Virus record (IMG/VR): IMGVR_UViG_3300027985_001685 | Coordinates: 124,001-188,000 of that record | Source of the DNA: a virus | Reading direction: 5' to 3' (one strand) | Length of the DNA: 64,000 bases | Part shown: positions 12,673 through 56,174 of the stretch, piece by piece | How positions within the stretch are numbered: the first letter of the stretch is position 1 | Layout: each line of letters opens with the position of its first letter | The notes under the pieces: model-generated | Told to the model about the DNA's origin: nothing | What the model saw: the letters and a program-made list of their open reading frames with translations, nothing else | Databases searched by the model: none | Translations under genes and position numbers: made by a program

Positions 12673-12859
12673 CTGCTGTAAAAAAGAAGTAGGTGAACTT
12701 TATTCAGCAAGTGAATATAAGGATTTTGAACCTAAAAATACGCCTGAAGAAGAAAAATTAAGACTAAAAAGGAATATTTTTGCTTTAAAAAATGTAGATA
12801 AGTGGTTTTGTCTAACATGTTTTGAAAGTGGAATATCACATACTAGAGTAAAATTTTAG
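12641..12859 (+). CDS. small zinc-finger-like protein, 72 aa
   Basis: 72-residue protein with two widely separated cysteine pairs (CSCCKK at 10-15 and CLTC near 57), as in small treble-clef or zinc-ribbon domains. Its ATG follows GACAAGGAG in the previous gene. It is the last gene before the first structured non-coding block. Confidence 0.65.
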   Translation: MSNQSQDFICSCCKKEVGELYSASEYKDFEPKNTPEEEKLRLKRNIFALKNVDKWFCLTCFESGISHTRVKF

Positions 12860-12873
12860 GATAAATGTAAACA

Positions 12874-12902
12874 TTTAGATATTTTTTACTTTTTAGTATT
12901 AT
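12874..12902 (+). promoter_or_regulatory. possible promoter of the structured RNA block
   Basis: TTTAGA (12874-12879), a 17-base spacer and TATTAT (12897-12902) resemble a sigma70 promoter with a weak -35 box. Transcription would begin near 12909, just inside the outer arm of the structured region. The surrounding sequence is very AT-rich, so chance is possible. Confidence 0.4.
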
Positions 12903-12903
12903 G

Positions 12904-13117
12904 TAAATTACATTCCCCTGAAACAGGGTAAGTGATTCCTTCAGGAATGCTTGTACGGGTATCACTAATCGATCACCCTCCCCAGCATTCCACCAGGAAT
13001 CACATCCCCTCCCGTCTATAGACGGGAAGGTTTCAGGGGATAGTAATTTACCAGGTGGCCAGATCCAAAACCGGTACCCGAGACGGATACCTGCTGGCCG
13101 CCTGACCCTTTTAGGGT
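12904..13117 (+). ncRNA. strongly structured RNA or leader, no recognised family
   Basis: Non-coding stretch that folds into two domains. Domain 1: TAAATTAC (12904-12911) with GTAATTTA (13043-13050); TCCCCTGAAAC (12914-12924) with GTTTCAGGGGA (13030-13040); GTGATTCCT (12932-12940) with AGGAATCAC (12995-13003); GGAATGCT (12944-12951) with AGCATTCC (12984-12991); and a CCCGTC-TATA-GACGGG hairpin (13011-13026). Domain 2: CAGGTGGCCAG (13052-13062) with CTGGCCGCCTG (13094-13104), and an ACCCT-TTT-AGGGT hairpin (13105-13117). The region is much more GC-rich than its surroundings. It may be a separate RNA or the leader of the zinc-finger gene at 13139. Confidence 0.65.
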
Positions 13118-13138: not shown

Positions 13139-13336
13139 ATGATAAGGATGTTTAATATTCTTCTTGGAAAAGTATTCAATAAGTATTGTGATTCTAACAT
13201 GATAGGGCTATGTCATGAGTGTTTTGCTATACTTAAAGACAACAATGTTGCATATTGTAATTTATGTAAAAAACACGTTTATAAATATCGTCTTATAGTT
13301 AAAACTATTATTAAGGGAATCTTTTATGACAAATAA
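13139..13336 (+). CDS. small zinc-finger-like protein, 65 aa
   Basis: 65-residue basic protein with two Cys pairs (GLCHECFA and YCNLCKKH), a probable treble-clef zinc site, and a Lys-rich C-terminus. CTGGAG precedes the ATG. It is the first gene after the structured block, so its expression may be controlled by that RNA. It overlaps the next gene by 11 bases. Confidence 0.65.
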   Translation: MIRMFNILLGKVFNKYCDSNMIGLCHECFAILKDNNVAYCNLCKKHVYKYRLIVKTIIKGIFYDK

Positions 13337-13577
13337 AATTTCTGTTTGTGCAGATGGGGTAAAAGTAAAATATGAAATAATCGGCGGGAAAGAAGTTCCT
13401 GTTTTTATTATTCCTCCTGGAATGTCTAGTTTGAGTCCAGAGCAATTAAAAGAGATGGAAGAAATAGATAACCGAGTTATTAAGAAAAAAGAAAAAGAAG
13501 AGGAAAGAACTATTCCTGATGAAGATGATTTTGAAGGTTGGCAAGATTATGAGCCAGAGGATTATCAATGGGACTAA
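13326..13577 (+). CDS. hypothetical protein with acidic tail, 83 aa
   Basis: Unrecognised 83-residue protein: a beta-rich N-terminus (KISVCADGVKVKYEIIGG), a charged helix (KKKEKEEERT) and a very acidic C-terminal tail rich in Asp, Glu and Trp. It overlaps both neighbours by about ten bases. The function is unknown. Confidence 0.65.
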   Translation: MTNKISVCADGVKVKYEIIGGKEVPVFIIPPGMSSLSPEQLKEMEEIDNRVIKKKEKEEERTIPDEDDFEGWQDYEPEDYQWD

Positions 13578-14212
13578 AGCATTTAGACATTTTTGTAATT
13601 GGTGATTGTCATTTTGGACATGAAGCCATTATCGATTATGCAAATAGACCCTTTATTAACCTAAAAGAAATGCATGATGTTTTAATTTATCAGTGGAATA
13701 AAAAGGTAAAGAAAGATGATATTGTTTTTATTTTAGGTGATCACGCTTTTTCTTATTTAAAGAAAACGGAAATAAAAGAAATTAATAGCAAATTAAATGG
13801 TAAAAAGATCCTTGTAAAGGGGAATCATGACAAAGTGAGCGGCATAGTTAATGCTATTAATCAAGGATATGATTTAGTGGTAAATGAAGTATGCCTAGCT
13901 TATGGTGGAATTAATTTTAGATTGTCTCACTTCCCTAAAAGGTCGTTTTGGTATCAAATTAAGACTTCCATTAAATCCCTGTTATTTCCTAAAAAATTTA
14001 GAAGAGAGTATTATCTAGCAGATAAATTTCATGATAAAAGACCTCAATATTGGGACGGCAATAAGTGGGTTATTCATGCACATACACATTCTAAAAATAA
14101 AATTAATGTAGACTTAAGATCTGTATGTGTTTCAGTGGAAGCATGGGACTATTCGCCAACTAATATGAATGAAGTTGTTAGTTTAATAAAAGAAAATAGT
14201 AAGTCAAAATAG
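13568..14212 (+). CDS. calcineurin-like metallophosphoesterase
   Basis: Probable metal-dependent phosphoesterase of 214 residues. The five motif blocks are visible: GDCHFGH (residues 12-18), ILGDHAF near 58, KGNHDK near 87, a histidine in RLSHFPKRSF, and AHTHSK near 178. The family hydrolyses phosphomono- or diesters in nucleic acids or nucleotides; short phage and bacterial forms like this one are mostly uncharacterised. It sits between two structured RNA blocks, which is suggestive but not proof of a role in RNA metabolism. Confidence 0.88.
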   Translation: MGLKHLDIFVIGDCHFGHEAIIDYANRPFINLKEMHDVLIYQWNKKVKKDDIVFILGDHAFSYLKKTEIKEINSKLNGKKILVKGNHDKVSGIVNAINQGYDLVVNEVCLAYGGINFRLSHFPKRSFWYQIKTSIKSLLFPKKFRREYYLADKFHDKRPQYWDGNKWVIHAHTHSKNKINVDLRSVCVSVEAWDYSPTNMNEVVSLIKENSKSK

Positions 14213-14250
14213 AGGGTGACTTACTAGTTTTATATATCAAAGGAGAATTT

Positions 14251-14619
14251 ATGGAAAGTAGAAGTAAAATTAAAACAGGCGATGTTTATCAAATTCGCAA
14301 AAGCGGAAGAAACTACATTGCTATCGGTAAAGCAAAAGACAATGCAGGAAATGTTTACATTTGTTCTGTGTTAAATGGAAATGTTAATCCAGATGGAACT
14401 ATGAAAGTTTATACAAACAGAAAGCCATCTATTCATTTTCATAAAGCACGTAATGTGTATCGTGTTCATTCTACACGTGAAGTTGATTACGGGACTTTTG
14501 TAAGTGCAAATCCAAAGATGGTTAAGTTGGTACGTCCTATGGCTCAAAATACTGGCGTAGAGATTGTTTCACCAAACATTCCATATCAATTGAAAAATCT
14601 ATTTAAAATTGTAAGCTAG
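14251..14619 (+). CDS. basic hypothetical protein, 122 aa
   Basis: Unrecognised 122-residue protein behind AAAGGAG. It is basic and beta-rich with many Asn, Lys and Arg residues (KIKTGDVYQIRKSGRNYIAI). It has no cysteine pair or membrane segment. It stands alone, with a possible promoter and a structured RNA immediately downstream. A small nucleic-acid-binding protein is a reasonable guess from composition only. Confidence 0.7.
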   Translation: MESRSKIKTGDVYQIRKSGRNYIAIGKAKDNAGNVYICSVLNGNVNPDGTMKVYTNRKPSIHFHKARNVYRVHSTREVDYGTFVSANPKMVKLVRPMAQNTGVEIVSPNIPYQLKNLFKIVS

Positions 14620-14639
14620 TTGTTTCAACTATCTATAAT
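14609..14639 (+). promoter_or_regulatory. possible promoter of small RNA 14.65-14.81 kb
   Basis: A perfect TATAAT (14634-14639) lies in TCTATAATTAAGTA, the same 14 bases that include the -10 box of the putative small RNA at 47.2 kb. The best -35 match is TTGTAA (14609-14614) with a long 19-base spacer, so the -35 element is weak. The shared extended -10 context is the main argument. Confidence 0.5.
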
Positions 14640-14645
14640 TAAGTA

Positions 14646-14808
14646 GATTTTATTATTTCTTTTACCAGCTAACTTTCAGGGACCAGGAATCCTTTCAGAT
14701 CATGATTGTGAACAATCTCTCCTGAATGAATCCCAGGACCCTTCAGTAGCTGGTAAAAATTGTAAACTTGGTCAGGAGGAGGTAACTCCTCCTGAAAAAG
14801 TTTTTTTC
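14646..14808 (+). ncRNA. putative small RNA with long interrupted stem and terminator
   Basis: From just after the TATAAT box to a terminator, about 160 bases. A closing stem TTTTACCAGCT (14660-14670) pairs with AGCTGGTAAAA (14748-14758). Inside it GGG, CC and GG steps pair across regularly spaced A-A mismatches (14679-14687 with 14733-14741), then TTCAG with CTGAA, and a GATTGT-GA-ACAATC tip hairpin (14704-14717). A terminator hairpin follows. There is no reading frame of note. It is not a family I recognise. Confidence 0.6.
14764..14808 (+). terminator. rho-independent terminator
   Basis: TCAGGAGGAG (14772-14781) and CTCCTCCTGA (14786-14795) form a perfect 10-bp stem with a GTAA tetraloop, extended by AAACTT/AAGTTT and followed by a T-run. 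The 5' arm includes a perfect Shine-Dalgarno-like GGAGGAGG buried in the stem. Confidence 0.75.
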
Positions 14809-14840
14809 TATTTTAAAAAAAATCTGTAGTTATATTTAAT

Positions 14841-15005
14841 GACAGTAAGAAGTATCTTCTTATTTTTAAATACTTACTACTGTCAAACATGTTAACGTAA
14901 ACATCTCATCCTTCACTAATCGTTCGGAAGGAGATGTTAACGTTTACATGTTTGGATCCTTCAGGATGTCTTCAGTCATCCTGGAGGATCACCCCTTGGG
15001 GTGAT
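14841..15005 (+). other. stack of four hairpins upstream of the ubiquitin-like operon
   Basis: Non-coding stretch with four consecutive hairpins: GACAGTA...TACTGTC (14841-14884); a 22-bp helix from CAAACATGT (14884-14892) to ACATGTTTG (14946-14954) with single T-T and A-A mismatches; GATCCTTCAGGATG with CATCCTGGAGGATC (14955-14990); and ATCACCCC-TT-GGGGTGAT (14988-15005). With the small RNA before it this fills the largest gene-free gap of the window (14620-15066). A 7-bp hairpin GACACAA-TG-TTGTGTC (15024-15039) follows just before the ribosome binding site. It may be a leader RNA, a separate RNA or protein-binding sites. Confidence 0.6.
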
Positions 15006-15066
15006 TATAATTAGTTATTTTATGACACAATGTTGTGTCTATATTTGTTGCTATAAGGAGGAAACT

Positions 15067-15240
15067 ATGGCACGTGTACTTTATTTTGAAGGTCAAGAAC
15101 TTCCACTACAAGACGGTATGACTATTGATGAAGCTAAAGAATGGGCTCAGGTAGTATTTCCAGGTCTTGAATCTGCTGAAGGCTATGAAGATGAAGACGG
15201 AAACTACGTCTTCACAAAGAAAGCCGGAACTAAAGGGTAG
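15067..15240 (+). CDS. ubiquitin-like protein (PRTRC protein C / Prok_Ub type)
   Basis: 57-residue protein matching my knowledge of PRTRC system protein C, the prokaryotic ubiquitin-like (beta-grasp) family. It has an N-terminal hairpin MARVLYFEGQELPL, a central helix (TIDEAKEWAQVVFP), an acidic strand and a C-terminus ending GTKG, the typical end for this family. AAGGAGG six bases upstream fixes ATG 15067. It lies at the head of an operon that also encodes E2-like, JAB and E1-like proteins, the set expected to attach it to and remove it from targets. Targets are unknown. Confidence 0.82.
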   Translation: MARVLYFEGQELPLQDGMTIDEAKEWAQVVFPGLESAEGYEDEDGNYVFTKKAGTKG

Positions 15241-15315
15241 TTAATACCCTTAGACATTTATTTACTTTATAGCCTTTTGTATTAAAGGATTTTAAATTAT
15301 TAATTAGGAGGGACT

Positions 15316-15591
15316 ATGTCATTAGGTCTAACTTTATTTAATTCATTAAAAGAGAGTAAGGAGCTAGAAAACATTATCCCTCTAGAGTACTCAAAAGTAG
15401 TGGCAGATCTGGCCGATGTGTCAGACTGCCAACAACTAGAAAAATTAATGGGTGAAATAACCCTATTCGATATAATCGATAAATATAAAGATAGTGAATC
15501 ATCTCTAGTCTTTCAAAAGAAAAGAATGAGAGACATCTATCATAGGCTGCTAAGGCTTGAAGCCGTTCCAGGAATCTGTAATTTTATATAA
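15316..15591 (+). CDS. hypothetical protein in conjugation operon, 91 aa
   Basis: Unrecognised 91-residue helical protein behind TTAGGAGG. It is acidic with one or two helical hairpins and two Cys residues that are not paired as a metal site. It is conserved in position between the ubiquitin-like and the E2-like genes only as far as this window shows. It could be an accessory factor or a target of the system; nothing in the sequence says which. Confidence 0.7.
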   Translation: MSLGLTLFNSLKESKELENIIPLEYSKVVADLADVSDCQQLEKLMGEITLFDIIDKYKDSESSLVFQKKRMRDIYHRLLRLEAVPGICNFI

Positions 15592-15603
15592 TAGGAGAAT
15601 AAT

Positions 15604-16386
15604 ATGTTAAATAACGTTTTGAGTAAAGATGTACAAAATAAATTGTTAATCTCTTATTATTATTCATTTGGAAGATCGCTAGGTTTGTTATCTGCAAAAA
15701 GAGGAATAAAAAGCGATGCTTTATGGAAAATCATTAAAGCTTTAATGAATAAAGCTTTGCCCTTTATTCCTGTATCTAAAGAAAGAAACTCTGATTGTAT
15801 GTTAATATCCATACAGAAAGGTCTAACTGGATACATGGTCTCATTAAGAGCTATGATAAGAAATTTAATTTCACAAAGAGATCCTACTTATTGGAGGAGT
15901 GAGGATAGAACTCTACCAAATAAAAGCCACATGATTACTGGCCCAGATAAGCTTCATGTATTAAGTAAAAAACTTCTTAAGTTCATGTATGGTGATGATT
16001 ACAAGAAACATTTTCCAACTCTTATCATCCCTAACTTTTTAACTCAGACGGAGACATGGACTTCTGCTCTTCGAGCTGATTTTGTAAATGTATATAAGGT
16101 TCTTAATGAACCATGCATTAAGGGCTTACAAAAGATAAATACAGATGAAATGAAACAAAATCTGAATGTAGGAATAAAAAAAGCCTATATTTCAATGATT
16201 CGGCATTCGTTACTTCAAGCATTAAGGCATGATACTCATGCAGTAATAAAGGATGCTAATAATAATTTTAAAAATGTTACTGAAACTACAGCTGAATTAG
16301 CAGAGGATGGTGAAGGAAAGGTTAGTGCTTTTCCCAATCAACTAAGATCTAGCTATTACCTATATACAGACAGGAGTACAACATGA
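15604..16386 (+). CDS. hypothetical protein in conjugation operon, 260 aa
   Basis: Unrecognised 260-residue protein, mostly helical and basic. AGGAGAATAAT precedes the ATG. It overlaps the E2-like gene by four bases (ATGA), so it is translated with the cassette. Bacterial PRTRC cassettes carry further proteins (named D, E, F and a ParB), and this could be a diverged counterpart, but I see no diagnostic motif. The middle contains a segment rich in Trp, Arg and Asp (RDPTYWRSEDRTLPNK). Confidence 0.7.
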   Translation: MLNNVLSKDVQNKLLISYYYSFGRSLGLLSAKRGIKSDALWKIIKALMNKALPFIPVSKERNSDCMLISIQKGLTGYMVSLRAMIRNLISQRDPTYWRSEDRTLPNKSHMITGPDKLHVLSKKLLKFMYGDDYKKHFPTLIIPNFLTQTETWTSALRADFVNVYKVLNEPCIKGLQKINTDEMKQNLNVGIKKAYISMIRHSLLQALRHDTHAVIKDANNNFKNVTETTAELAEDGEGKVSAFPNQLRSSYYLYTDRSTT

Positions 16387-17117
16387 GTTTATGCAATATT
16401 GAAATAAATGAAAGCTCAGCAATCTTAACATATAAAGAGCACCATAGAATGGCTGCTGTAACTTCTAAGTCAATTGACATTGCTGATTTAGGTAAGGTTC
16501 TGGCGGCTAATGTTGAGATGGATAGTGGACTTATTTATACTCCTCCAACCATGCAAATTAAGAGGTATATGAAGAAAGGTTCTTCAGAAATGGTTTTAAT
16601 TGAAGAAGCTCCAAGAAAACGAAAAATAAAGCATTACGACTGTGGCGAGCTTGAAATTATGCTTCCTAGACTAGTCTATGGAATCCTACATAACTCTCAA
16701 TTGTCTGGAAGATCTGCCTTGAACATGAGAATTGGAACGGTTAAGGGTCCTATAATAACTGGTAAAGAGCCAATTTACCGGTTCTTTTTTCCAAATGTAT
16801 ATGATACTGGAACTATTTGTTGGGGTTATTCAAGAGATAGAAATGAGGATTCCTTAAATTCTATTACTTATGCTTTAGCTTTGATTGAATCTTTTTGGGG
16901 TGGGGTATCTAATAATGATTTATATAGATCTCCATTGGCAGATACAGATAGAATAAAAAGTGACAAGTTAGGTCTTGATTATTGTGACAAGTATTTAAAA
17001 TATATTGCGACACTAGATCAGTATCCAGAGGAGTTTATTCATTCTCCTCTAAGTTCAAAAGTTGGATTTTCAGTAAACAATTTCTGTAGCCTAGTGTTAG
17101 GAAACTCGGGAGAATAG
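16383..17117 (+). CDS. E2-like protein (PRTRC protein B / Prok-E2_D type)
   Basis: 244-residue protein matching PRTRC protein B. The region FFPNVYDTGTICWG (residues 135-148) reads like the active-site stretch of ubiquitin-conjugating enzymes (HPN...GxICL), with Cys146 in the place of the thioester cysteine. The N-terminal part is beta-rich, including a YTPPTMQIKRYM segment typical of the family. It would receive the ubiquitin-like protein from the E1 and pass it to a target. It overlaps the gene before it and is two bases from the JAB gene. Confidence 0.8.
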   Translation: MSLCNIEINESSAILTYKEHHRMAAVTSKSIDIADLGKVLAANVEMDSGLIYTPPTMQIKRYMKKGSSEMVLIEEAPRKRKIKHYDCGELEIMLPRLVYGILHNSQLSGRSALNMRIGTVKGPIITGKEPIYRFFFPNVYDTGTICWGYSRDRNEDSLNSITYALALIESFWGGVSNNDLYRSPLADTDRIKSDKLGLDYCDKYLKYIATLDQYPEEFIHSPLSSKVGFSVNNFCSLVLGNSGE

Positions 17118-17119
17118 TC

Positions 17120-18172
17120 ATGGGAAAAAAAGAAGATTTTTTAAAGTCAGTTATAAACTACCATTGTGGTGAATCAAAAGATACAGTTATTAATCCATTC
17201 TTTAATTATATAGTTCAATCTGACGGTGACTACTATGTAGAAAAGAATTCAATTGGAACTTTTGTTGCGAAAGTTCTTGAAGTAAAAGATGGTGAAAAAT
17301 TACGCCCAGGCCTTCCTGTAGAATACAAGGGGTCCTTTGTAGATTTTTCTCTTCCTAAAATTCCTGAAGATATTTTTTATCAAATTTTAGGCTTTTTTCA
17401 AGCTATTGCTCACGATATGGGTGATTCAGAAGCCTTTATACAAATTTATTATGACAAAACTAATAATGAATATCAGGTTGTAGTACCCAAGCAAACAGTA
17501 TCTAAAGCTTCTGTAAACTATGATAGAGACAAGGATTTACATATTTTATATCCTTCTCGATATATTCTAGTTATGGATATCCACAGCCATAATAGTATGC
17601 CTGCTTTCTTTTCTGGAACTGATAATAGAGATGAAAAGTGTACAAGGTTTTATGGTGTTTTAGGTAAGGTTTGCAGTGATCAAATTGAAGAAAAATATAG
17701 ATTTGTTTTAAAAGGAAGAGAAGTTCTTTTAAATAGATCTGACATTTTTGATGTTAAAGAAAAAACTGCTGTATTTCCCACTAATTGGAAAGATTCAATA
17801 AGTAAGTATACCCAGCCCGCTGTGACAGCTGGTCCAACTCGTTATCCAGGAACATACAACTTTCCTACTACAGGAAGAGAAACATTTGACGACCTTAATG
17901 ATTATTGGCCAAATGACAGTCTAGTTAACCCTAATACTGGGGAGCTAAGTTCGTATGATGGATATAATGATAGTTATGATTCATCGAATATGAAGTATTA
18001 TGAAGGTAGTGATCAAATTGTAGACATGATCAAATATACAAATAACGATAATTGGACAGATCGTGATTATAGAAAAGTAATTTCAAATATCTTCTCATAT
18101 TATTATGAGGAAGCCCCTGATGTTTTTCACGAATATATGGAAGTTTATTGTGAAGAACCTGACGGAGAATAG
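17120..18172 (+). CDS. JAB/MPN metallopeptidase (PRTRC protein A type)
   Basis: 350-residue protein with a complete JAMM motif, HxHx7SxxD: His155, His157, Ser165 and Asp168 in HSHNSMPAFFSGTD. A candidate catalytic Glu lies in SEAFIQIYYD (near 104). JAB peptidases remove or mature ubiquitin-like proteins using zinc. The C-terminal 120 residues (about 215-350) are an acidic, Tyr/Asn/Asp-rich extension without known fold. The position between E2-like and E1-like genes is the standard order. Activity is likely because all metal ligands are present. Confidence 0.88.
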   Translation: MGKKEDFLKSVINYHCGESKDTVINPFFNYIVQSDGDYYVEKNSIGTFVAKVLEVKDGEKLRPGLPVEYKGSFVDFSLPKIPEDIFYQILGFFQAIAHDMGDSEAFIQIYYDKTNNEYQVVVPKQTVSKASVNYDRDKDLHILYPSRYILVMDIHSHNSMPAFFSGTDNRDEKCTRFYGVLGKVCSDQIEEKYRFVLKGREVLLNRSDIFDVKEKTAVFPTNWKDSISKYTQPAVTAGPTRYPGTYNFPTTGRETFDDLNDYWPNDSLVNPNTGELSSYDGYNDSYDSSNMKYYEGSDQIVDMIKYTNNDNWTDRDYRKVISNIFSYYYEEAPDVFHEYMEVYCEEPDGE

Positions 18173-18184
18173 AAAGAGGTAAAA

Positions 18185-19051
18185 ATGCAAGAGTTAAGTT
18201 CAAAAATAGAGGTAACTGTGGCTAGACCCGTTGCTCCTGAAGTTAAAATACCTGTTAAACCTTCTACTTCTACTGTTGCTGTGGCTCCTATAAGAACAAA
18301 ACTAGGAGAGTCTTTAGGCTATGATAGAGAAGAAGATGGGATGCCTGCTCTAACAGTTTTTGTTGTTGGTTTAGGCGGGACAGGGGGATATGTTTTACGA
18401 GATCTGGCTCGATATGCTTACTATCTTAGAGTAAGTAAGAAAGCCGAACTCAATATCGTTCTTTATGATGGTGATACAGTAGAAGAAAAGAATCTTTTAA
18501 GACAGAACTTTATCACTAGCGATCAAGGCAAGTATAAGGCTGAGGTTTTAGCAAAAAGATATTCTGCAGCTTTTGGTGTAGATATAAAGTTTGTAAATGA
18601 ATACTTGTCTACTAAAAATATGGTTTCTCTTAATTATGGTAGATCCATTATAATTTCTTGTACTGACAGTAATGATGCTAGAAGGTTAATTCATAATGAA
18701 ATTCTCCGCTCTAGAGTTGGACTTGTCTCTTGGATAGATTCTGGAAATGAAAAACGTAGTGGTCAAGTTATTCTTGGGGAAAAGAATAGAGGTTATTCTG
18801 GCTTCCAGACATTTAAGTCTTGTATCGAGCTCTTTCCTGAACTAGCTGATCCTGCTAACGATCCGGTAGATACTCGTTCTTGTGCAGATGTTGGAATTGA
18901 TGAATCACAGAATTTATTTATCAATTCTATGGCAGCCATGATGGTAATGAATTTTGTTAGAGTTTTAGTTGAGAATGAATGGACCAATTTAAATGGTGTT
19001 TCTTTTGGGATTAATGGTGTTTCAACGCCAATTTTTATAGATAATAAGTAA
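18185..19051 (+). CDS. ThiF/E1-like adenylyltransferase (PRTRC ThiF type)
   Basis: 288-residue E1-like enzyme expected to adenylate the C-terminus of the ubiquitin-like protein. The Rossmann motif VVGLGGTGGYVL is at residues 60-71, an acidic YDGD near 94-97, the family motif NLLRQNFITSDQGKYKAE at 103-120 and the strand SWIDSGNEKRSGQVILGE at 182-199. Cys233 in VDTRSCADVG is the best candidate for the thioester cysteine. The pattern agrees closely with PRTRC ThiF proteins. AGAGGTAAAA precedes the ATG. A Pro/Val-rich N-terminal linker of about 50 residues is extra. Confidence 0.92.
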   Translation: MQELSSKIEVTVARPVAPEVKIPVKPSTSTVAVAPIRTKLGESLGYDREEDGMPALTVFVVGLGGTGGYVLRDLARYAYYLRVSKKAELNIVLYDGDTVEEKNLLRQNFITSDQGKYKAEVLAKRYSAAFGVDIKFVNEYLSTKNMVSLNYGRSIIISCTDSNDARRLIHNEILRSRVGLVSWIDSGNEKRSGQVILGEKNRGYSGFQTFKSCIELFPELADPANDPVDTRSCADVGIDESQNLFINSMAAMMVMNFVRVLVENEWTNLNGVSFGINGVSTPIFIDNK

Positions 19052-19064
19052 GGTGGAGTTTCGT

Positions 19065-19643
19065 ATGTCATATATAAGGCCTTTAGTTTTTGAAGACCCT
19101 TTAGAGTCTGAGACAAGAAATGATATTTCTATCCTAGAAAATCTTGGTGATGAATCATTTCTTTATGATATTTTTTATGACAGTAGGATTGGCGGGGTAT
19201 GTCATCACTATGCCTTTAATGGATTTAATGTTGGAATCTATTTTAGATCTAATGGAGTTATATGGACAAATGCAGTTTGTTTTTTTGATAGAAATTATTA
19301 TTATCTAGGAATGAATGCGGATGGGACACTGAATACTTCACCAGTTAGTCGTTATGGAATACCATCAAGATTACATCTGACTTTACTTGTAGATGGAGAT
19401 CCAGTAGAGTTTTTTCAAAATCAAAACTGTACTGTTCACTTCTTGCCTGGATCCTATAATTTAGATTTTTTAAAAAATTATACAGAAGAAACTGACCTAG
19501 ACCTTGAAGAAGAGGATAGAGTTTCAGCAGAAAAGAAACTTCAATCATCTCTCTTGGCTTATTTTTTAAATATAGCTGAATATTTTGGTGGAGTTATCGA
19601 TGGGCAAGATGTATCGGATTCAGACAACCTCACAGAGTTTTAA
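19065..19643 (+). CDS. hypothetical protein between E1 and reverse transcriptase, 192 aa
   Basis: Unrecognised 192-residue protein starting at ATG 19065 behind GGTGGAG, the same ribosome binding site that precedes the reverse transcriptase. It is acidic, rich in aromatic residues (FFDRNYYYLGMNADG) and ends with a helical, very acidic segment (TEETDLDLEEEDRVSAEKK). Its last 44 bases overlap the reverse transcriptase gene, linking it tightly to both systems. It is an obvious candidate for an effector, adaptor or target. Confidence 0.72.
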   Translation: MSYIRPLVFEDPLESETRNDISILENLGDESFLYDIFYDSRIGGVCHHYAFNGFNVGIYFRSNGVIWTNAVCFFDRNYYYLGMNADGTLNTSPVSRYGIPSRLHLTLLVDGDPVEFFQNQNCTVHFLPGSYNLDFLKNYTEETDLDLEEEDRVSAEKKLQSSLLAYFLNIAEYFGGVIDGQDVSDSDNLTEF

Positions 19644-20475
19644 TAATTGTTTTTATATTAAAAGTACTGTTTTAAAAAAGAATGGTAAAAATAGAGTTAT
19701 CTATGCCCCTTCTGATAAATTAAAAGAGTATCAAAAAGAAATTTCTAACATTCTTGAAAGTGGTTTTTCTGACATCTTAAATAGTAGTCATATAATGGGA
19801 TTTGTTAAACAAAAATCTATTGTCGATAATGCAACTAAGCATTTAGGTAAAGATTGGGTCATTAATATCGATATTAAAGATTTTTTTCCTAATATAAAAG
19901 GTCAGTATGTTTATGATCTTATCTCTAAGAGGTCTATTATCTTTTCAGACTTTATATCTAAGTATAATAGCAGCTTGATAGATGTAGTAAGACTTTTAAC
20001 ATTAAAGGACAAATTAATTCAGGGAAGCCCAGCTAGTCCTATAGTGGCAAATTTAATCGGTGCTGCGATGATTGACAATAAGGTTAAAGACTTTTTAGAT
20101 TGCTATGCGCTTGATGATTTAGATTATACTCGTTATGCGGATGATCTTACAATCTCTTTCAATTCTGAGTTGAAAAAGCATGAACTAAAAGATATAATAC
20201 ACTCTTTAAAAAAAAGTTTAGACCCTTTTCAGTTCACAAAGAAAAAGACGATTATAAGTTCTAGATACGATAGACAAGAGGTGACTGGTATTACAGTAAA
20301 TAATACTAGATGCAATCTTGGAAGAGAAAAAAGAAATTCTTTAAGAGGTTGGATTCATTCGGTTATTCAGAGTGGTAGATCAATTAAAGATGATCAAAGA
20401 TTAATGGGACACTTGTCTTATTTAAGATATGTTAATCCCGAAAGTTATAATAGATTAATAAAGAAATACAGTTAA
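19600..20475 (+). CDS. retron-type reverse transcriptase
   Basis: 291-residue RNA-directed DNA polymerase. Motifs in order: fingers GFVKQKSIVDNATKH (67-81), which contains the retron NAxxH signature; catalytic block A INIDIKDFFPNI with Asp91; QGSPASPIVANL (141-152); catalytic RYADDLTISF with YADD at 179-182; and the retron VTG triplet in RQEVTGITVN (228-230). The C-terminal LSYLRYVNPE thumb segment is also typical. It is a stand-alone RT without fused domain. ATG 19600 is chosen because GGTGGAG lies six bases before it; an in-frame TTG at 19585 is less likely. Retron RTs make multicopy single-stranded DNA from a partner RNA; the partner is not obvious here. Confidence 0.9.
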   Translation: MGKMYRIQTTSQSFNNCFYIKSTVLKKNGKNRVIYAPSDKLKEYQKEISNILESGFSDILNSSHIMGFVKQKSIVDNATKHLGKDWVINIDIKDFFPNIKGQYVYDLISKRSIIFSDFISKYNSSLIDVVRLLTLKDKLIQGSPASPIVANLIGAAMIDNKVKDFLDCYALDDLDYTRYADDLTISFNSELKKHELKDIIHSLKKSLDPFQFTKKKTIISSRYDRQEVTGITVNNTRCNLGREKRNSLRGWIHSVIQSGRSIKDDQRLMGHLSYLRYVNPESYNRLIKKYS

Positions 20476-20485
20476 GGAGTATTTT

Positions 20486-20812
20486 ATGCAAGTTACAGAT
20501 GCAAGTTTTTTTCCAGTTAATAATGGCCCAACAGTTGCTTTGGGGCAAGTTATTTTAGATAAAGTCTTGAAGCTTAATGTAAAGATCATGAATGGTAAAA
20601 ATGGTCTCTGGGTTGCTTTCCCTTCAAAATTAAGTCAAAAAGATAATAAATATTATTCGGATTTTAATTTTATTGATAAAGATGCACATGCTGATTTTTC
20701 TACAGCTGTTCTATCTGCTTATCATACAACTAATTCTCAAGGAAATGGTAGTCCTTTAAGTAGAAACAGTAACTCTGAAGCAGAGATTATGCAGGATGAC
20801 TTACCATTTTAA
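20486..20812 (+). CDS. SpoVG-like nucleic-acid-binding protein with SSB-like tail
   Basis: 108-residue protein. Residues 1-85 follow the SpoVG pattern (VTDASFFPV, LDKVLKLNVKIMNGKNGLW, VAFPSK, then FSTAVLSAY), a small domain known to bind DNA and RNA in bacteria. The C-terminus is a flexible Ser/Asn-rich linker ending QDDLPF, like the acidic tip of single-strand-binding proteins that recruits partners. TAAGGAG precedes the ATG. Lying 10 bases after the reverse transcriptase and followed by a structured RNA, it may bind the RT's RNA or DNA product. Confidence 0.78.
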   Translation: MQVTDASFFPVNNGPTVALGQVILDKVLKLNVKIMNGKNGLWVAFPSKLSQKDNKYYSDFNFIDKDAHADFSTAVLSAYHTTNSQGNGSPLSRNSNSEAEIMQDDLPF

Positions 20813-20830
20813 GCTTCACTTTTTAGAGAC

Positions 20831-20967
20831 CTAGTAGAACATTATAAAAACTACTAGATGTTCGCTTTAATGTAACCGCCAAAACCGAAAGGCTTTGGCG
20901 TTCCGTTTGATCTGAAGGCATTACAGTCAAAGCAGGATTCCTGCCTACTCTATTTTGGGTAGGCAGG
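20831..20967 (+). ncRNA. structured RNA downstream of the reverse transcriptase
   Basis: Non-coding stretch with nested structures. CTAGTAG (20831-20837) pairs with CTACTAG (20851-20857) while GAACAT (20837-20842) can pair with ATGTTC (20858-20863), the order of an H-type pseudoknot. CGCCAAA-x-CC-GAAA-GG-x-TTTGGCG (20877-20900) is a GNRA hairpin enclosed by GCTTT/AAAGC and TGTAA/TTACA. CCTGCCTAC (20940-20948) pairs with GTAGGCAGG (20959-20967), an 11-bp stem that competes with GCAGG-ATT-CCTGC (20932-20944). It could be the RT template, a leader or a terminator/antiterminator for the next genes. Confidence 0.6.
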
Positions 20968-20995
20968 ACAAATGGAAGAATGAAGGGGTGATAAG

Positions 20996-21172
20996 ATGAC
21001 AATAGAAAAAAAGTTTAAAGAACCTGAACAATTAGTTTTATGGGACTTTAAAAATAACGATGATAAAGATAGAATTAGAGGTCTTAATACTAATGGCATT
21101 CTTTATGATGACCAATGGTTAGGAACTAATGATGACAAAGAAAAAGACAGGGCCGAAGAAGTTTACAGTTAA
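20996..21172 (+). CDS. hypothetical protein, 58 aa
   Basis: Short charged protein with ATG 20996 behind GAAGGGG. Composition is rich in Asp, Lys and Asn (MTIEKKFKEPEQLVLWDFK...). It overlaps the next gene by 44 bases in a different frame. A good ribosome binding site and normal codon use support it, but it is unrecognised. Confidence 0.55.
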   Translation: MTIEKKFKEPEQLVLWDFKNNDDKDRIRGLNTNGILYDDQWLGTNDDKEKDRAEEVYS

Positions 21173-27248: not shown

Positions 27249-27320
27249 GGGAGCTATGCTCGTAGCAGCTAGTAGTTGATCGGATTAGTGTAGGAGGTTC
27301 GACTCCTTCGGCTCCCGCCA
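27249..27320 (+). tRNA. tRNA-like element, anticodon not assignable
   Basis: The 3' half is a convincing tRNA: T-arm GGAGG-TTCGACT-CCTTC (27293-27309), acceptor strand GGCTCCC pairing with GGGAGCT at the 5' end (27249-27255), discriminator G and an encoded CCA (27318-27320). The total is 72 bases, short by about four. The D-arm and anticodon arm do not fold in the normal way; the best middle stem CTAGT/ATTAG leaves a 10-base loop. It may be a degenerate tRNA, an unusual one, or a tRNA mimic. I would not name an amino acid. Confidence 0.5.
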
Positions 27321-49790: not shown

Positions 49791-50861
49791 ATGTGTAATC
49801 TGTCTCTCTGTAAAAAAGAATTAATGATATATCTGAAAACTACAGAGTTTTGCAACCTTAACTGTCATCACTGTTATAACGGTGAAGAAGGTGTCAAATT
49901 AAGCAACTTTTTAAATACATTTAATAAAGATAAAACGGTTGAGTTTATCAAACAAATGGATGGTAAATTTGACCTAATAGACATCTCTTTTCATGGTGGA
50001 GAGCCACTTTTGGCAGATCCATTGGATATGTTTTATACCTATACGGCTATTAATGAAATGGAAACAGACATTAGATGGGGTATTCAAAGTAACCTATCAA
50101 TGCAACTAGATGATGACAGAAAACAGCTGCTGACTATTCTTGCTAAAAATGGTGGCATGGGAACATCTTGGGACTATGATTTAAGATTTCATACACGAGA
50201 AATATATGATACATGGCGTGAAAATGTTGATTTTATTAATGATATCGAAGGGGCAAGTAATACCTTAATTGTCTCTATGTCTAAACGTCTTGTGACAGAG
50301 ACAAAAGCTATAGATATTATTAAGTTCGCCAAATCAATAGGGTTTGATGCAATTCTATTTGAAAGAATTACAAAGTCAGGAAACGCTTTGAATTTTAATA
50401 GAATAATTCCCACAAGTGCTGAAGTGGATAAATACACATTAGATATGTATAATGACACTGTGGAAACAGGAATATATACTGATATAAAGAATAATTATCT
50501 ATCTTCTATCCTCTATCCTTATGTGTTTGGTTCTTTTACAGGCTGTAGAAGTCGAGAATGCGCCCAGAGAGTAATGACAATTAATGCTAATGGATCTATC
50601 TCTGGATGCCCTAACTCTGCTCATAAGGTTATTTTTGGCTCAATTAATAACTCGTTTGAAGATGTCCTAAAAGCTCCTCTTAGAAAAAATGAGATTATAA
50701 AAGAGCAAGTAAGTAAGTGTATGCAGTGTGAATATCTAGACCGCTGTAATGGTGACTGCTATCAACTTACTTATGACGATGAGTGTTATTCTCCAAAGTC
50801 TCTATATAAACTGTTAGAGAAATTACCAAGTCCAGCACTTTTAAAAAAGATAGTATTATAG
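49791..50861 (+). CDS. radical SAM/SPASM protein 1 of the cluster
   Basis: 356-residue radical SAM enzyme. The cluster motif CNLNCHHCYN (CxxxCxxC) is at residues 21-30, followed by DISFHGGEPLLA. The C-terminal SPASM domain has CRSRECAQRVMTINANG, GCPNSAHK and KCMQCEYLDRCNGDC, giving auxiliary Fe-S sites. SPASM proteins mostly modify peptides or proteins (thioether links, oxidations, epimerisation). The Cys-His-tailed gene follows 12 bases downstream, making it the nearest candidate substrate. Confidence 0.9.
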   Translation: MCNLSLCKKELMIYLKTTEFCNLNCHHCYNGEEGVKLSNFLNTFNKDKTVEFIKQMDGKFDLIDISFHGGEPLLADPLDMFYTYTAINEMETDIRWGIQSNLSMQLDDDRKQLLTILAKNGGMGTSWDYDLRFHTREIYDTWRENVDFINDIEGASNTLIVSMSKRLVTETKAIDIIKFAKSIGFDAILFERITKSGNALNFNRIIPTSAEVDKYTLDMYNDTVETGIYTDIKNNYLSSILYPYVFGSFTGCRSRECAQRVMTINANGSISGCPNSAHKVIFGSINNSFEDVLKAPLRKNEIIKEQVSKCMQCEYLDRCNGDCYQLTYDDECYSPKSLYKLLEKLPSPALLKKIVL

Positions 50862-50873
50862 CGGAGTAAGATC

Positions 50874-51554
50874 ATGACTATTTCTAGAGAAAAAATTTCA
50901 AAAGCAAGAACGGTACAAGAGTTCTTAAATAATGTCACAAACTATGTAAAGACTCACTATTTATGGCACAGACAGTCCTATCCTACAGGTGTTTACTTTC
51001 CTTACCAATGGTTAGACTATTCATCTAATGTGCTAGGCCCAACTACATCAGAACTAGATACTGAAGCTGTTTCTGCTCAGGACTTTGCTCAAAGCTTTGA
51101 GTCATGGTGCAAGACATATACAAGAGCCAGAAAATTAAGACATGTTCTCTATAAAAGACAGTCAGGGAAGTACTATGTAGATACTCCACTTTTAGTAGAA
51201 TATGATAGTACAAACTATGCTCTATTTAGTCCAAGTGCTAATATTGTCAATGAAGGAACAGCCTATGCTGTAGGAACTACAGGGTGGAGTTCTAGTGCAC
51301 AATGGAGAGTTGTGTCTGGATTAAAAACAGGACTTAATACTGCTGCCTACGCAGGAATAGAAGCAATCAATGAGGCTGCCGGAGTAGATGAAGATATTCC
51401 AGCCTATATATCTAGCTTCAATACTTTAATTTCAAACCTTAAAAGTAACTGGGTAACAAATCGCGAGACCTTAACAACAAGTGTATACTATTACTGCCAT
51501 ACTAATTGTTATAGTAAATGTCATAGTAACTGTCACTCTAGGAGTAGAAGATGA
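50874..51554 (+). CDS. protein with C-terminal Cys-His tetrapeptide repeat, 226 aa
   Basis: 226-residue protein with a soluble Tyr/Ser-rich body and a striking end: after SVYYY come four repeats of four residues each starting with Cys, CHTNCYSKCHSNCHSRSRR (residues 208-226), with His after three of the Cys. Nothing else in the body binds metal. Sitting between radical SAM genes, the repeat looks like a core peptide to be modified or a metal-binding tip. GCGGAGTAAGATC precedes the ATG. It overlaps the next gene by four bases. Confidence 0.78.
   Translation: MTISREKISKARTVQEFLNNVTNYVKTHYLWHRQSYPTGVYFPYQWLDYSSNVLGPTTSELDTEAVSAQDFAQSFESWCKTYTRARKLRHVLYKRQSGKYYVDTPLLVEYDSTNYALFSPSANIVNEGTAYAVGTTGWSSSAQWRVVSGLKTGLNTAAYAGIEAINEAAGVDEDIPAYISSFNTLISNLKSNWVTNRETLTTSVYYYCHTNCYSKCHSNCHSRSRR
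51495..51539 (+). repeat. 12-base tandem repeat encoding the Cys-His motif
   Basis: Three consecutive 12-base units plus a 9-base partial unit, consensus TGYYATAGTAAN, encode the C-x-x-x repeats of the Cys-His protein. The units differ at several positions, so the repeat is not a recent slippage product. Confidence 0.7.
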
Positions 51555-52198
51555 TCCTTCCTTTAGAAGTAGATGAACTCTTAAAACTCATGGATAGTGA
51601 AGATAGTAAAAATGAAACTCTCGCTATAGATTATGAAAACTCTGAATTAAAAAGTAGAGATTTCATGAACTATGTCACTAATCTTGGATTAAAAATTAAG
51701 TTAGAGAACTATGATAATGTTTCAAAAGAAGAGATGGCGGAGCTCATTCATGCCTACATGGGAACTAAATGCCTAATAGAACCTATTGCTGAGCTTGATG
51801 ACATCATTGCTACAGCACTGGTAGCTAACCATTTAGATGACAATATCAACTATGTCTATGAGTTCAACAAGACTAGAATCGATGCTTTAGGCCAATTGAT
51901 TAGAGAAATACCACTGGCTATTGCCCTAATGGAAAGTGACATTGCAGAGTCCTTAGATCTAACAGGAGTTACAGTTTATGAAGAATTGGATGAAAAAGAT
52001 ACGCTTATATATAATGGTATCGGCGTTTTGTTACTCGATGATTTTGTTGAGCTATATATATCGATTAAAGGTATTTCTAAAGAAGTAAATAAAGAAAAAT
52101 TTCTAACTCCAATCTATAAAAATAATTCTTTATATAACTTTCTCACTGCTAATGACTTTTCATTATTCCAGGTTTATACTGGCTTAATGAGTATGTAG
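51551..52198 (+). CDS. hypothetical protein in radical SAM cluster, 215 aa
   Basis: Unrecognised acidic 215-residue protein, mostly helical (EIPLAIALMESDIAESLDL). It overlaps the Cys-His gene by four bases and is eight bases from the next gene. It has only one cysteine. It could be an adaptor or chaperone for the modified protein; no motif supports a firm role. Confidence 0.7.
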   Translation: MILPLEVDELLKLMDSEDSKNETLAIDYENSELKSRDFMNYVTNLGLKIKLENYDNVSKEEMAELIHAYMGTKCLIEPIAELDDIIATALVANHLDDNINYVYEFNKTRIDALGQLIREIPLAIALMESDIAESLDLTGVTVYEELDEKDTLIYNGIGVLLLDDFVELYISIKGISKEVNKEKFLTPIYKNNSLYNFLTANDFSLFQVYTGLMSM

Positions 52199-52206
52199 GA
52201 GCAAAC

Positions 52207-53094
52207 ATGATACAGATTGACAATATAAGATACCTCTGTTGGACAGAGGCCTTCCCCTCTATACCTCATAATGAGTCTTATATTCTTATTGATGAGCGTT
52301 ACACAGAAGAGCAAAAGAAAAGCAACCTGAAGGTTAGACCTTTTGGCGAGTTAGAGCCTTGTTATATTTTTTCTAACACTCAAGAAATGTTCGACTATCA
52401 AAAGGTAAATGACGTAGACTTTTGGGCTGAATGGATAGTTGCAGACACTAAGTCATTCTGTAAAATCCTTCACTCTATTGTCGATAAAACATATTATCTA
52501 TGCGATCAAGATCTTAGCTATAGAGATCTTTTAAATGCCTATTTTTTAGATTTTTATAGAAAAAACTATAGGGGGATGAATAGAGAAGACGCTATATCTC
52601 TATATAATGAATTACTTTATGGCGAAGAGCTTTTAGAGGAAAGTCTTAACCCTTATACTTTTGAGCATCAATTGCTGTGCGATCCTCCTGATATCTCTGA
52701 AGACATCCAGGATTGTTTTAATAGATGGAGGGAACAACAGCTAGGCTCTATTTATTACGATCTTATAAAACACTACAATGGTCCATATGGAAGTTTGGGA
52801 TTATTTAATGGTGAAGTTAAAGACTTAATTAACTACGAACTTAATGATGTAAATCTTACAAAGGTCGGAGTTTTTCTTTCATGGGTTACAGGTATGAGTC
52901 ACAGTGAGATTCCAATAGAAGCACTGAAGCTAGACATAGAAAAAGCTGACTTCCACTCACTCCTTAAATGTGACCATGGAACTACATCACATTTAGCCTA
53001 TTTTGACTATATGGATGCCAGTAGGCTTTGTTCTTTAAATGTTATACGTTTCCTTTATGGTGTTGGAGAATTTGACAATGAAATCAATGGCTAG
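52207..53094 (+). CDS. hypothetical protein in radical SAM cluster, 295 aa
   Basis: Unrecognised acidic 295-residue protein with scattered cysteines (EPCYIF, SFCKIL, YYLCDQDL, LLCDPP, QDCFNRW, LKCDHG). It has no classical Fe-S motif. AGGAGCAAAC precedes the ATG. It overlaps the second radical SAM gene by 17 bases. A partner or substrate-recognition role is possible. Confidence 0.7.
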   Translation: MIQIDNIRYLCWTEAFPSIPHNESYILIDERYTEEQKKSNLKVRPFGELEPCYIFSNTQEMFDYQKVNDVDFWAEWIVADTKSFCKILHSIVDKTYYLCDQDLSYRDLLNAYFLDFYRKNYRGMNREDAISLYNELLYGEELLEESLNPYTFEHQLLCDPPDISEDIQDCFNRWREQQLGSIYYDLIKHYNGPYGSLGLFNGEVKDLINYELNDVNLTKVGVFLSWVTGMSHSEIPIEALKLDIEKADFHSLLKCDHGTTSHLAYFDYMDASRLCSLNVIRFLYGVGEFDNEING

Positions 53095-54112
53095 ACAATT
53101 ACTTGGAATGAAAATAAAAAATGATTATGAGATAGAAGTTTGCCTTACACAGTATTGCACTAAAGGGTGCCACTTCTGTTATCAAGGTCGTGACTCATCT
53201 AGCGAAATTGAAACACAAACAATACTTAATTCAATCAATAGAACCATTGAAAAAGCACCAAAAGAAATAAACAGGTTTAAAATTAGTCTACTGGGTGGAG
53301 AGCTCTTTGACCCTTCTTTTGAGAGCTTTCAAGAGCGTTTAGATGTTTATGGGAATATTATTGAAAGTATAATAAACAAAAACCCAGGAAAACTAATCGA
53401 CTTTGTTGTTGTAACAAACCTAGAAAGAAATGATTCTGAGTCAGTAAAAATGATTACAGAGTTTCTAGATAATTTAAATAAAGAAAGTTCTAGAGTTAAA
53501 CTGTCTACATCGTATTATCCAAATGAGACCTCTGAGTTAAATAAGGACTTTATAGGAACACTTCTAGCTTATGACAAAAGGATTGATGGAGTCACTGTAG
53601 TTATGACCTCAGAAACCATAGGTCATATTATTAAAGGTGATGAAACATTTAAATGGTTATATGACTCTAACTACAACATACAATTAGATTATTATACACC
53701 TAATTCAGCTTCTGAAATGCTAATGCCATCTGACCTAGACCTGTATAATTTCTTTACCTACCTAAAGGTGACTGCCCCTAAAATAGAACTTATAGACGCA
53801 CTATCAAATGGAAATGTAAGTCATACATCATGTGCAAGTCCGAATAAATCTACGGTCCTCCCGAATGGAGAAGTTATTGCGTGTAAATATGATATTTCTG
53901 ATAATGATCGATACTTAGTTCCTATTTGCCAAAGATCAAATGAAAATATAATTCTATCTTTTATGAATCAAAATAGCTGTCTTAGTTGTGAATTCTATAA
54001 ACGGTGCCCACTTGGATGCTTTGTTATGTTTAACCATAAAGACTATTTAAAAAAGAAAACACTTAGCGGTTGCATTTTTAAAAACTTTTTTAATAAATAT
54101 AAGGCGGAATAA
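53078..54112 (+). CDS. radical SAM/SPASM protein 2 of the cluster
   Basis: 344-residue radical SAM protein starting at ATG 53078 behind TTGGAG; in-frame upstream starts lie inside the previous gene. The cluster motif is CTKGCHFCYQG (CxxxCxxC) at residues 25-35, with SLLGGELFDP following. The SPASM end has SCASPNKSTVLPNGEV, ACKYDI, SCLSCEFYKRCPLGC and SGCIF. It is followed directly by the third radical SAM gene. Confidence 0.9.
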   Translation: MKSMARQLLGMKIKNDYEIEVCLTQYCTKGCHFCYQGRDSSSEIETQTILNSINRTIEKAPKEINRFKISLLGGELFDPSFESFQERLDVYGNIIESIINKNPGKLIDFVVVTNLERNDSESVKMITEFLDNLNKESSRVKLSTSYYPNETSELNKDFIGTLLAYDKRIDGVTVVMTSETIGHIIKGDETFKWLYDSNYNIQLDYYTPNSASEMLMPSDLDLYNFFTYLKVTAPKIELIDALSNGNVSHTSCASPNKSTVLPNGEVIACKYDISDNDRYLVPICQRSNENIILSFMNQNSCLSCEFYKRCPLGCFVMFNHKDYLKKKTLSGCIFKNFFNKYKAE

Positions 54113-55165
54113 ATGTATAATTTAACAGAGCTAGTAGAGATTGTTAAATATAGTCTCTTTAATATTCCTAAAAAACAAGAAGGGTCTATTGACCTAATAA
54201 TCAAACCCACTGGTAAATGTAATTTTGCATGTACTTTTTGCTCTTCTCATCTTTATTCTTTAGGGAACGATAAACTTCCTGTCTCCACTATTAGAAAATA
54301 CCTACTAGACTATAATGTTAATTCTATTATAGTCAATGGAGGTGAACCATTAATGATGGATCCGAAGTATTACTTTGATATACTCAAAGACATTCGGAGA
54401 TTTTCTCCTAATACCCAGATATCTATAACGACTAATCTCTGGGACTATTGTGAGAACCCTCAAAAATGGAAGGAATTATTTATGCAGAAAGAGGTGGGAG
54501 TTATTACCTCTTTTCAGCCTGATGGAACGAGAATCATTAAGGATAGAGGTGAACCCTTTACTAAAGAAATGTTTTCATTCTGGCTTCAAGAGTTTAAGCA
54601 AGAAATTGGTTATATGCCACACTTTATAACAGTAGCTTCTAGAGATAACTTAGATGGCTGTATAGATGCAATTAAATTAGCAAAAGATCTTGGAACTATC
54701 TGTAAAGTTATTCCGCTTGATAATGCAGGTAGAAGTAGAGATCTTCTAACAACTGGTGAGCTTTTTAAATTCTATGAAAGAGTTTATGAAGAGGGGCTTT
54801 CAAAGTATGAGGAAAATACTTCCTTAATTGTTGGTGGTAGACTGCTAGGAGCATGTCCATTCTTGCATGGAAAATGCTACAAACACATCATTGCCTTGGA
54901 TCCAGATGGTGAAGAGTATAAGTGCGGGGCTATGGCTGATAAAATGCGTCAATTAACAAAGGACGCATATGTTGTTCCTCTAAAACAGGAATGTACAACT
55001 TGTAGGTATTTCAATTATTGTAATGGTTGTGCTAATACAGTTTTTAGTATGGCAACTAAATATACTATAATAGATTCAGAAGATAAAACAATCTCTTTCT
55101 CTAATCATACCAATCTTAATTGTAAGTCAATGAAGTCTCTAACGACTCTTAATCAATTTCTTTAA
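54113..55165 (+). CDS. radical SAM/SPASM protein 3 of the cluster
   Basis: 350-residue radical SAM protein whose ATG directly follows the stop of protein 2. The cluster motif is CNFACTFCSSH (residues 34-44), then IIVNGGEPLMM. SPASM cysteines are in LLGACPFLHGKCYKH, EYKCGAMA and ECTTCRYFNYCNGC. It differs enough from proteins 1 and 2 to be a separate activity. Its 3' end meets the fourth protein's gene tail-to-tail with a 17-base overlap. Confidence 0.9.
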   Translation: MYNLTELVEIVKYSLFNIPKKQEGSIDLIIKPTGKCNFACTFCSSHLYSLGNDKLPVSTIRKYLLDYNVNSIIVNGGEPLMMDPKYYFDILKDIRRFSPNTQISITTNLWDYCENPQKWKELFMQKEVGVITSFQPDGTRIIKDRGEPFTKEMFSFWLQEFKQEIGYMPHFITVASRDNLDGCIDAIKLAKDLGTICKVIPLDNAGRSRDLLTTGELFKFYERVYEEGLSKYEENTSLIVGGRLLGACPFLHGKCYKHIIALDPDGEEYKCGAMADKMRQLTKDAYVVPLKQECTTCRYFNYCNGCANTVFSMATKYTIIDSEDKTISFSNHTNLNCKSMKSLTTLNQFL

Positions 55166-56174
55166 GAATATCGTATATTTGTCTATAGGAACACTCTTCT
55201 TCTTTTGAGTGTTCCTTTAAGGCACAGTCTACAGAGCAATGCTTTAAGTACTCACAACTAAGACATTGTTTTTTACAGGCTAAATCAAATAACATCTCAT
55301 CTGGCCTACATACTCTAGATTCAGTACAAGACATAATGTCATTCTCTGGAGTTACAACTAGGCTTTCTTTTCCACACTCCATTCTTGCTGATACTTCTTT
55401 ATTAGCTCTTCCCTTCCACTCTTTTATTACACTAAATTTTGAAAATTTTGGATGATCTTTTACTAGTCTTACAAAGGATAGTAGTTGGCCTGTACTAGGA
55501 ATAAGTTTCTTAAAATCGCTTCCACCAAACACACCTAAATTATTCTTTACTATACTGAAATTAACAGGATATTTTTCTAGTAGGTAGTAAAAATAAGCCG
55601 GGATGTCGCCATCTAAAAACCGGGTTATCGTATTATTAGTTAAAACGAAATTAACTCCGTCAATTAAACTCTCTAAATTCTTTTCATTTTCCTTAAATAT
55701 TTCTTCCTGCTCTTCGGTTAAATTCCTGTCTGCTAAATCATATGACACAACAAGTTTCATAGGTGCACACAAACGTATAGCCTCAATAAAATACTTTACT
55801 CTTTTCCAATTTTTAAATATCAGATTAGATGCCATATCAAAAGATACATTCTTTCCTAAAAGCTTTCCGTAATCCGCCGAGTTAACAACGAGATCCAATA
55901 CGCCAAGAAGAAATTCATTTGAAATTGAGTCATCAAAAGTCTCCCCACCAAGTATAGTCGTCAGTACGTTTTCTGCCTTGATGTTTCTATAAAAATCCAT
56001 TAATATTTCTTTCTTTTTAGCTAGCGATTCAAATGTTAGTCCTACATCTGACTTATGTGGTTGCTTACAGAAAGCACAATTCAATGAGCATTTGTAAAAT
56101 AAAAACACCTCCGCATCTGCAAAGTTCTCATCTTTTAATGCTGGTAAAACTAATCCCACTTGCCCTCCGAGCAT
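55149..56174 (-). CDS. radical SAM/SPASM protein 4, opposite strand
   Basis: 341-residue radical SAM protein on the minus strand. The cluster motif is CSLNCAFCKQPH (CxxxCxxC) near residues 29-40, then ILGGETFDDS. SPASM cysteines are in RMECGKESL, MSCTESRVC and QCLSCEYLKHCSVDC. It belongs to the lysis/tail-fibre operon by orientation, and overlaps the zinc-ribbon gene before it by 25 bases. Convergence with protein 3 places the fourth enzyme beside the other three. Confidence 0.88.
   Translation of the reverse strand: MLGGQVGLVLPALKDENFADAEVFLFYKCSLNCAFCKQPHKSDVGLTFESLAKKKEILMDFYRNIKAENVLTTILGGETFDDSISNEFLLGVLDLVVNSADYGKLLGKNVSFDMASNLIFKNWKRVKYFIEAIRLCAPMKLVVSYDLADRNLTEEQEEIFKENEKNLESLIDGVNFVLTNNTITRFLDGDIPAYFYYLLEKYPVNFSIVKNNLGVFGGSDFKKLIPSTGQLLSFVRLVKDHPKFSKFSVIKEWKGRANKEVSARMECGKESLVVTPENDIMSCTESRVCRPDEMLFDLACKKQCLSCEYLKHCSVDCALKEHSKEEECSYRQIYDILKEID
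55187..55218 (+). terminator. probable terminator for the radical SAM operon
   Basis: AGGAACACTC (55187-55196) pairs perfectly with GAGTGTTCCT (55207-55216) around a 10-base loop and is followed by TT AAGG, a weak T-run. It lies within the minus-strand gene's coding region, just beyond the end of protein 3. Confidence 0.5.

Follow-up and report, generated by a model that had tools for sequence, protein, structure and literature searches.

A 215-base non-coding element at positions 12903-13117 of the window, the 64,000-nucleotide stretch of phage DNA analysed here, forms a fold that is real, rare and an orphan. Several comparable blocks, this one among them, occur close to a PRTRC cassette and a gene for a retron-type reverse transcriptase (RT), a setting that was absent from a sequence-only reading in which the element had been described as a GC-rich, two-domain structured RNA region without a known family. 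We tentatively propose that the element is a structured 5' leader, carried on a + strand transcript, of the downstream genes at 13139-14619.

Genomic context of the element

The window corresponds to bases 124001-188000 of a virus record totalling 188,132 bases. The phage is AT-rich, with a GC content of about 33%, and Pfam identifies a chaperonin and DNA polymerase III alpha in the window, while RecA, ribonucleotide reductase (RNR) and radical-SAM-like proteins are probably encoded as well, judging from their sequences. The source virus resembles a large tailed phage, and no close relative turned up in the collections searched: scans with GroEL, phosphoesterase, ThiF and RNR returned either no close phage relatives or matches of at most 57% identity (RNR). 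Within the same record the phage encodes a tmRNA (L006:16800-17320) and eight tRNA genes (L005:3440-9501). Elsewhere in the window, a tRNA-like sequence upstream of recA (27249-27320) has good acceptor and T arms, an encoded CCA and an abnormal middle, and was not called by ARAGORN; it contains GATTAGTG, which is complementary, possibly by chance, to the CACTAATC apical loop of the element. Several radical-SAM-like genes at 49791-56174 surround a protein (50874-51554) ending in CHTNCYSKCHSNCHSRSRR, an arrangement that by analogy may be like a peptide-maturation cluster, and a family of small proteins with starts like MKIRNGFVSNSSSSSF is repeated at least six times (3722, 4419, 6227, 6709, 30883, 31197, 31798).

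The element is present once in the record, contains no credible reading frame, and is flanked by co-directional small genes, one ending at 12859 and the next starting at 13139. Its GC content is as high as 54% in a 150-nt window, whereas the phage averages about 33%, which bears out the description as GC-rich relative to the genome. A ribosome-binding-site-like ACTGGAG is found soon 3' of its last hairpin. The gene that follows had been taken for a zinc-finger gene, a fair label for the small ORF with two CxxC motifs that lies downstream; this ORF has no match among Pfam or PHROG families.

The genes further downstream include relatives of the PRTRC C-like, A and ThiF proteins (NCBIfam TIGR03738, 0.018; TIGR03735, 4.7e-14; TIGR03736, 7.6e-41), the first of these calls being backed by Bacillus phage KLEB27-3, which has a homologue, then the RT and, 3' of it, a SpoVG-like gene (NCBIfam, 1.6e-8). 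The PRTRC, SpoVG and RT scores lie below the NCBIfam curated cut-offs, so that these proteins are to be regarded as relatives and not as certified members. The coordinates of all features are collected in Table 1.

Table 1 Features of the element and of the surrounding locus, in window coordinates.
Feature	Coordinates	Strand	Remarks
Promoter-like TTTAGA-17-TATTAT	12874-12902	+	9/12 consensus matches; putative start near 12909
P1 closing helix, 5' arm	12903-12924	+	9 bp, 2x2 internal loop, 11 bp
P2 long hairpin	12925-13006	+	9 bp, 3x3 internal loop, 8 bp, apical stem, loop ACUAAUC
Apical-loop decamer TCACTAATCG	12962-12971	+	Recurs in apical loop of hairpin 14882-14956
P3 short hairpin	13007-13030	+	7 bp; CCCGTCT-ATAG-AGACGGG region
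P1 closing helix, 3' arm	13030-13051	+	22-nt arms, 91% complementary to 12903-12924
Second domain	13052-13103	+	GGTGGCCAG...CTGGCCGCC hairpin, inner stem
Small hairpin	13104-13117	+	ACCCTTTTAGGGT
65-aa ORF	13139-13336	+	Two CxxC motifs; directly downstream of element
Phosphoesterase	13568-14212	+	phrog_547, E 6.9e-40; same gene run
Second block	14633-14836	+	Layout like element: closing helix, long hairpin D, short hairpin E
Third block	14838-15042	+	Hairpins F, G, H, I, J; directly 5' of PRTRC C-like gene
PRTRC cassette	15061-19051	+	C-like (15061), A (17120), ThiF (18185)
Retron-type RT	19585-20475	+	NCBIfam retron_St85_RT 1.8e-55; PADLOC retron RT 2.6e-53
Separate structured region	20805-21000	+	Downstream of RT; closing helix, two short hairpins, long hairpin

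Fold, base pairing and family searches

Folded as RNA, positions 12904-13117 (214 bases) reach -106.5 kcal/mol, against -59.5 +/- 4.6 kcal/mol for dinucleotide shuffles (z = -10.2), and none of 200 shuffles attained this energy. The minus strand gives a z of -8.5 as RNA, and the main domain folded as DNA one of -11.8. Folding is about equally strong on the two strands, and thus the fold alone picks no strand. In a GC-corrected 150-nt window scan of all 188 kb the element ranks first on both strands, and among 557 kb of further viral DNA a single window came close, with a residual of -33.5 against -37.2 for the element. Most of our comparisons are built on folding energies and on units chosen by hand.

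The predicted structure is a three-way junction, in which a closing helix (P1) encloses a long (P2) and a short (P3) hairpin; 3' of the junction come a second hairpin domain and then a small hairpin. The predicted helices measure 9 bp (GTAAATTAC/GTAATTTAC), 11, 9, 8 and 7 bp, and the second domain has an 11-bp stem. This agrees with the two-domain architecture described earlier, and the stems of 11, 9, 8 and 8 bp were recovered in place, except that the first 8-bp stem is in fact the 9-bp GTAAATTAC/GTAATTTAC helix, clipped by a start at 12904. The arms of P2 are short palindromes in their own right (ATTCC-TTCA-GGAAT and ATTCC-ACCA-GGAAT). The terminal small hairpin is not an obvious terminator, because no T-run follows it directly.

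The junction is almost purely Watson-Crick, with no G-U among its 55 pairs on the + strand. Among the strongest other structures of this phage, three regions picked by eye contain 28 G-U in 145 pairs; the p values for the element (7e-5) and for all blocks of the locus taken together (5 of 193 pairs; 3e-7) are for this reason indicative only. Within the blocks the asymmetry between strands, at 5 G-U versus 10 A-C, is not significant (p = 0.30). The deficit fits a DNA-level role, a role as a template copied by an RT, an inverted duplication that is still young, or stability under strong selection, and leaves room for an RNA role. Of the earlier description as structured RNA, the structure stands; the RNA part does not follow, given the similar folding of the strands and the lack of G-U pairs. 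A further three-way junction of this phage, at L007:16688-16835 (80688-80835 of the record), contains 14 G-U pairs when read as the + strand but none when read as the - strand, and has no Rfam match; with 14 G-U versus 0 A-C, this region at 80.7 kb looks clearly like a + strand RNA.

A search of Rfam 15 gave no match to the element at gathering score and only chance-level matches at relaxed E-values, which supports the statement that it is structured and of no known family. No homologues were found by DNA-pattern scans of viral contigs and genome contigs or by distant blastn against phages and plasmids. We rejected a MITE- or REP-like mobile repeat, the element being single copy in the record and without copies in the other genomes searched, as well as an integron attC site, the core motif of which is absent. 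The phage-carried non-coding RNAs GOLLD and ROOL are likewise structured regions, but the element has no Rfam match. GOLLD and ROOL are far larger than the element.

Sister blocks and the proposed 5' leader

A second region of very strong folding (14620-15040, z = -11.9) follows after the four genes downstream of the element and comprises two blocks. In the second block, hairpin D spans 14660-14758 and hairpin E spans 14764-14803, the latter followed by a T-run and therefore terminator-like. In the third block, hairpin G has the same apical loop as the element, and hairpin H has TCCTTCAGGA in common with it. Altogether three decamers (ACCAGGAATC, TCACTAATCG and TCCTTCAGGA) are shared between the element and 14620-15040, all in direct and none in reverse orientation, compared with a mean of 0.2 and a 99th percentile of 2 in shuffles; local alignments between the blocks are weaker (p = 0.02 to 0.1). 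These sequence resemblances suggest that the blocks may be of common descent. CAGGA occurs six times on the + strand of the blocks, where about 0.5 are expected, yet a CsrB-like sponge was rejected, since the predicted fold places the GGA in base pairs.

As a leader, the nascent RNA would fold into the closed P1-P2-P3 junction and then into the second and the small hairpin, ending just 5' of the ribosome-binding site. The block at 14633-14836, with its terminator-like stem, would close the same transcript at the 3' end. The paired blocks would insulate the phage mRNA and stabilise it against ribonucleases that attack the 5' or the 3' end, and a protein might bind the ACUAAUC apical loop. The proposal builds on the observed fold and how rare it is, on the location of the element, and on the sister blocks with the loop they have in common with it; to these we add by inference transcription, the strand, a function at the RNA level and the protective role.

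Several observations argue for a leader: the fold is the most extreme of the genome, the element occupies a non-coding gap between co-directional genes with ACTGGAG shortly after its last hairpin, and the sister blocks bracket four genes, share direct decamers with the element, one of them the apical loop, and supply a stem with a T-run. The GC content, far above the genome average, points the same way, as high GC is typical of structured RNA in AT-rich genomes. Promoter-like hexamers lie directly upstream, although such sites are no more numerous in the region than in shuffles, or than chance, and the first hairpin arm may start slightly 5' of the putative start site. The complete lack of G-U pairs and the near-equal folding of both strands would be unusual for a structure acting only as RNA, and no homologue was found, hence no covariation. 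Known mRNA-stabilising stem-loops of phages and bacteria, in 5' leaders or at 3' ends, resemble the element in preceding a gene and the blocks in surrounding one gene run; the element differs from them in being much longer, junction-shaped and with hardly any G-U.

Comparison with reverse transcriptase loci

Alternatively, and in our judgement somewhat unlikely, the element and its sister blocks may serve the retron-type RT encoded 6.5 kb downstream, as templates or cofactors of which at least a part is copied into hairpin single-stranded DNA. They would then correspond, in dispersed form, to the multi-unit arrays found beside RT genes in other large phages. This explanation has the best comparative support, yet it fails the retron layout and position. 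The element shares with retron ncRNAs (msr-msd) a closing helix of complementary a1/a2 ends around hairpins, a very strong foldback and the retron-type RT in the same locus. A retron ncRNA, however, has a short 5' and a long 3' hairpin on the RT strand, whereas the + strand of the element runs from long to short and the order is reversed only on the - strand; moreover, about ten genes separate it from the RT and no repeated msr-like hairpin is present. On these grounds of layout and position, we rejected the identification of the element itself as a retron ncRNA. There is no gap for an ncRNA directly 5' of the RT in the window, which favours a link to the blocks, but a better fit to a retron ncRNA is the region at 20805-21000 near the RT, which, with its predicted retron-like hairpin order, is the best candidate for the RT's own ncRNA.

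Viral contigs were scanned with an RT alignment, and 80 loci (1.09 Mb) were kept. The seven strongest foldback windows, which belong to five loci, are without exception upstream of the RT; the ones inspected resemble classical retron ncRNAs, their long hairpin being nearly perfect. The foldback of the element is as extreme as in these windows, a class with one comparable window in the 557 kb of control viral DNA, but its layout differs. Five of the 80 loci (L107, L131, L161, L168 and L172) also have homologues of PRTRC A and/or ThiF. The best-scoring match to the RT of the window, at 37% identity, is in L107, where the RT and two structured blocks lie between phosphoesterase and PRTRC genes, that is, at the site of the second and third blocks of the window.

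In Listeria phage LPJP1 and in Staphylococcus jumbo phages, a non-coding stretch of about 0.7-1.3 kb precedes the RT gene and contains several structured units. Every unit combines a conserved hairpin with a variable, GC-rich one, and the whole looks like a multi-unit msr-msd array. Such arrays were observed directly upstream of jumbo-phage retron-type RTs at L098:4299-5517, L099:4265-5290, L105:1340-2230 and L106:1215-2280, with conserved hairpins such as ATTATATGAATACGTATAAT in the Staphylococcus phages and TGATTAATATGTGATGTAATCGTCACTAATCA in LPJP1. The window blocks are similar to these arrays in their closing helices round GC-rich imperfect hairpins, their number and their low G-U content (21 of 430 pairs in the arrays of LPJP1 and Staphylococcus phage Madawaska). 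They differ in being dispersed and in having only short motifs in common, whereas the array units repeat a conserved hairpin and adjoin the RT. No sequence similarity between the element and the structured regions of L107, L131, LPJP1 or Madawaska survived multiple testing. A Staphylococcus jumbo phage paper reports the RT, and the word 'noncoding' is absent from it (PMC10638138); a narrow phrase search of the literature for jumbo-phage RT arrays gave no match. Our impression is that the arrays are undescribed, without any claim of novelty. That the element and its sister blocks are the dispersed templates or cofactors of a PRTRC-associated phage RT, a multi-template retron of the phage's own, appears unlikely.

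A possible site acting at the DNA level

It is also rather improbable that the palindrome acts as DNA, extruded or single-stranded, and is bound by a phage protein during replication, partition or packaging. The purely Watson-Crick arms, the strand symmetry, the palindromes nested within palindromes, the strong fold as DNA and the single copy would all suit such a site, as would the nearby PRTRC cassette with its ParB-related and ThiF-related proteins. No recognised initiator or partition protein is tied to the element, though, the GC skew does not change sign there, and the recurrence of the apical loop and two other decamers in direct orientation only would rather suit a strand-specific signal. 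What probability remains after these three explanations falls to a non-functional inverted duplication and to options not listed here: a functionless by-product of template switching or a decayed mobile element would account for the perfect arms lacking G-U and for the missing homologues, but is very unlikely in view of the high GC content, the three blocks in this one locus with a common loop motif, the lack of a second copy and the lack of an obvious target-site duplication.

Implications

If the element is a 5' leader, it would add to the cases in which large phages use elaborate RNA to insulate their transcripts, in this instance RNA that belongs to no known family. A link to the RT, if true, would join phage retron-type RTs, the hairpin arrays of jumbo phages and the PRTRC cassette, all of them poorly understood. 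The seven papers found on PRTRC together with phage all appear to concern bacterial genomes, and the linkage of RT and PRTRC genes makes the RT connection testable.
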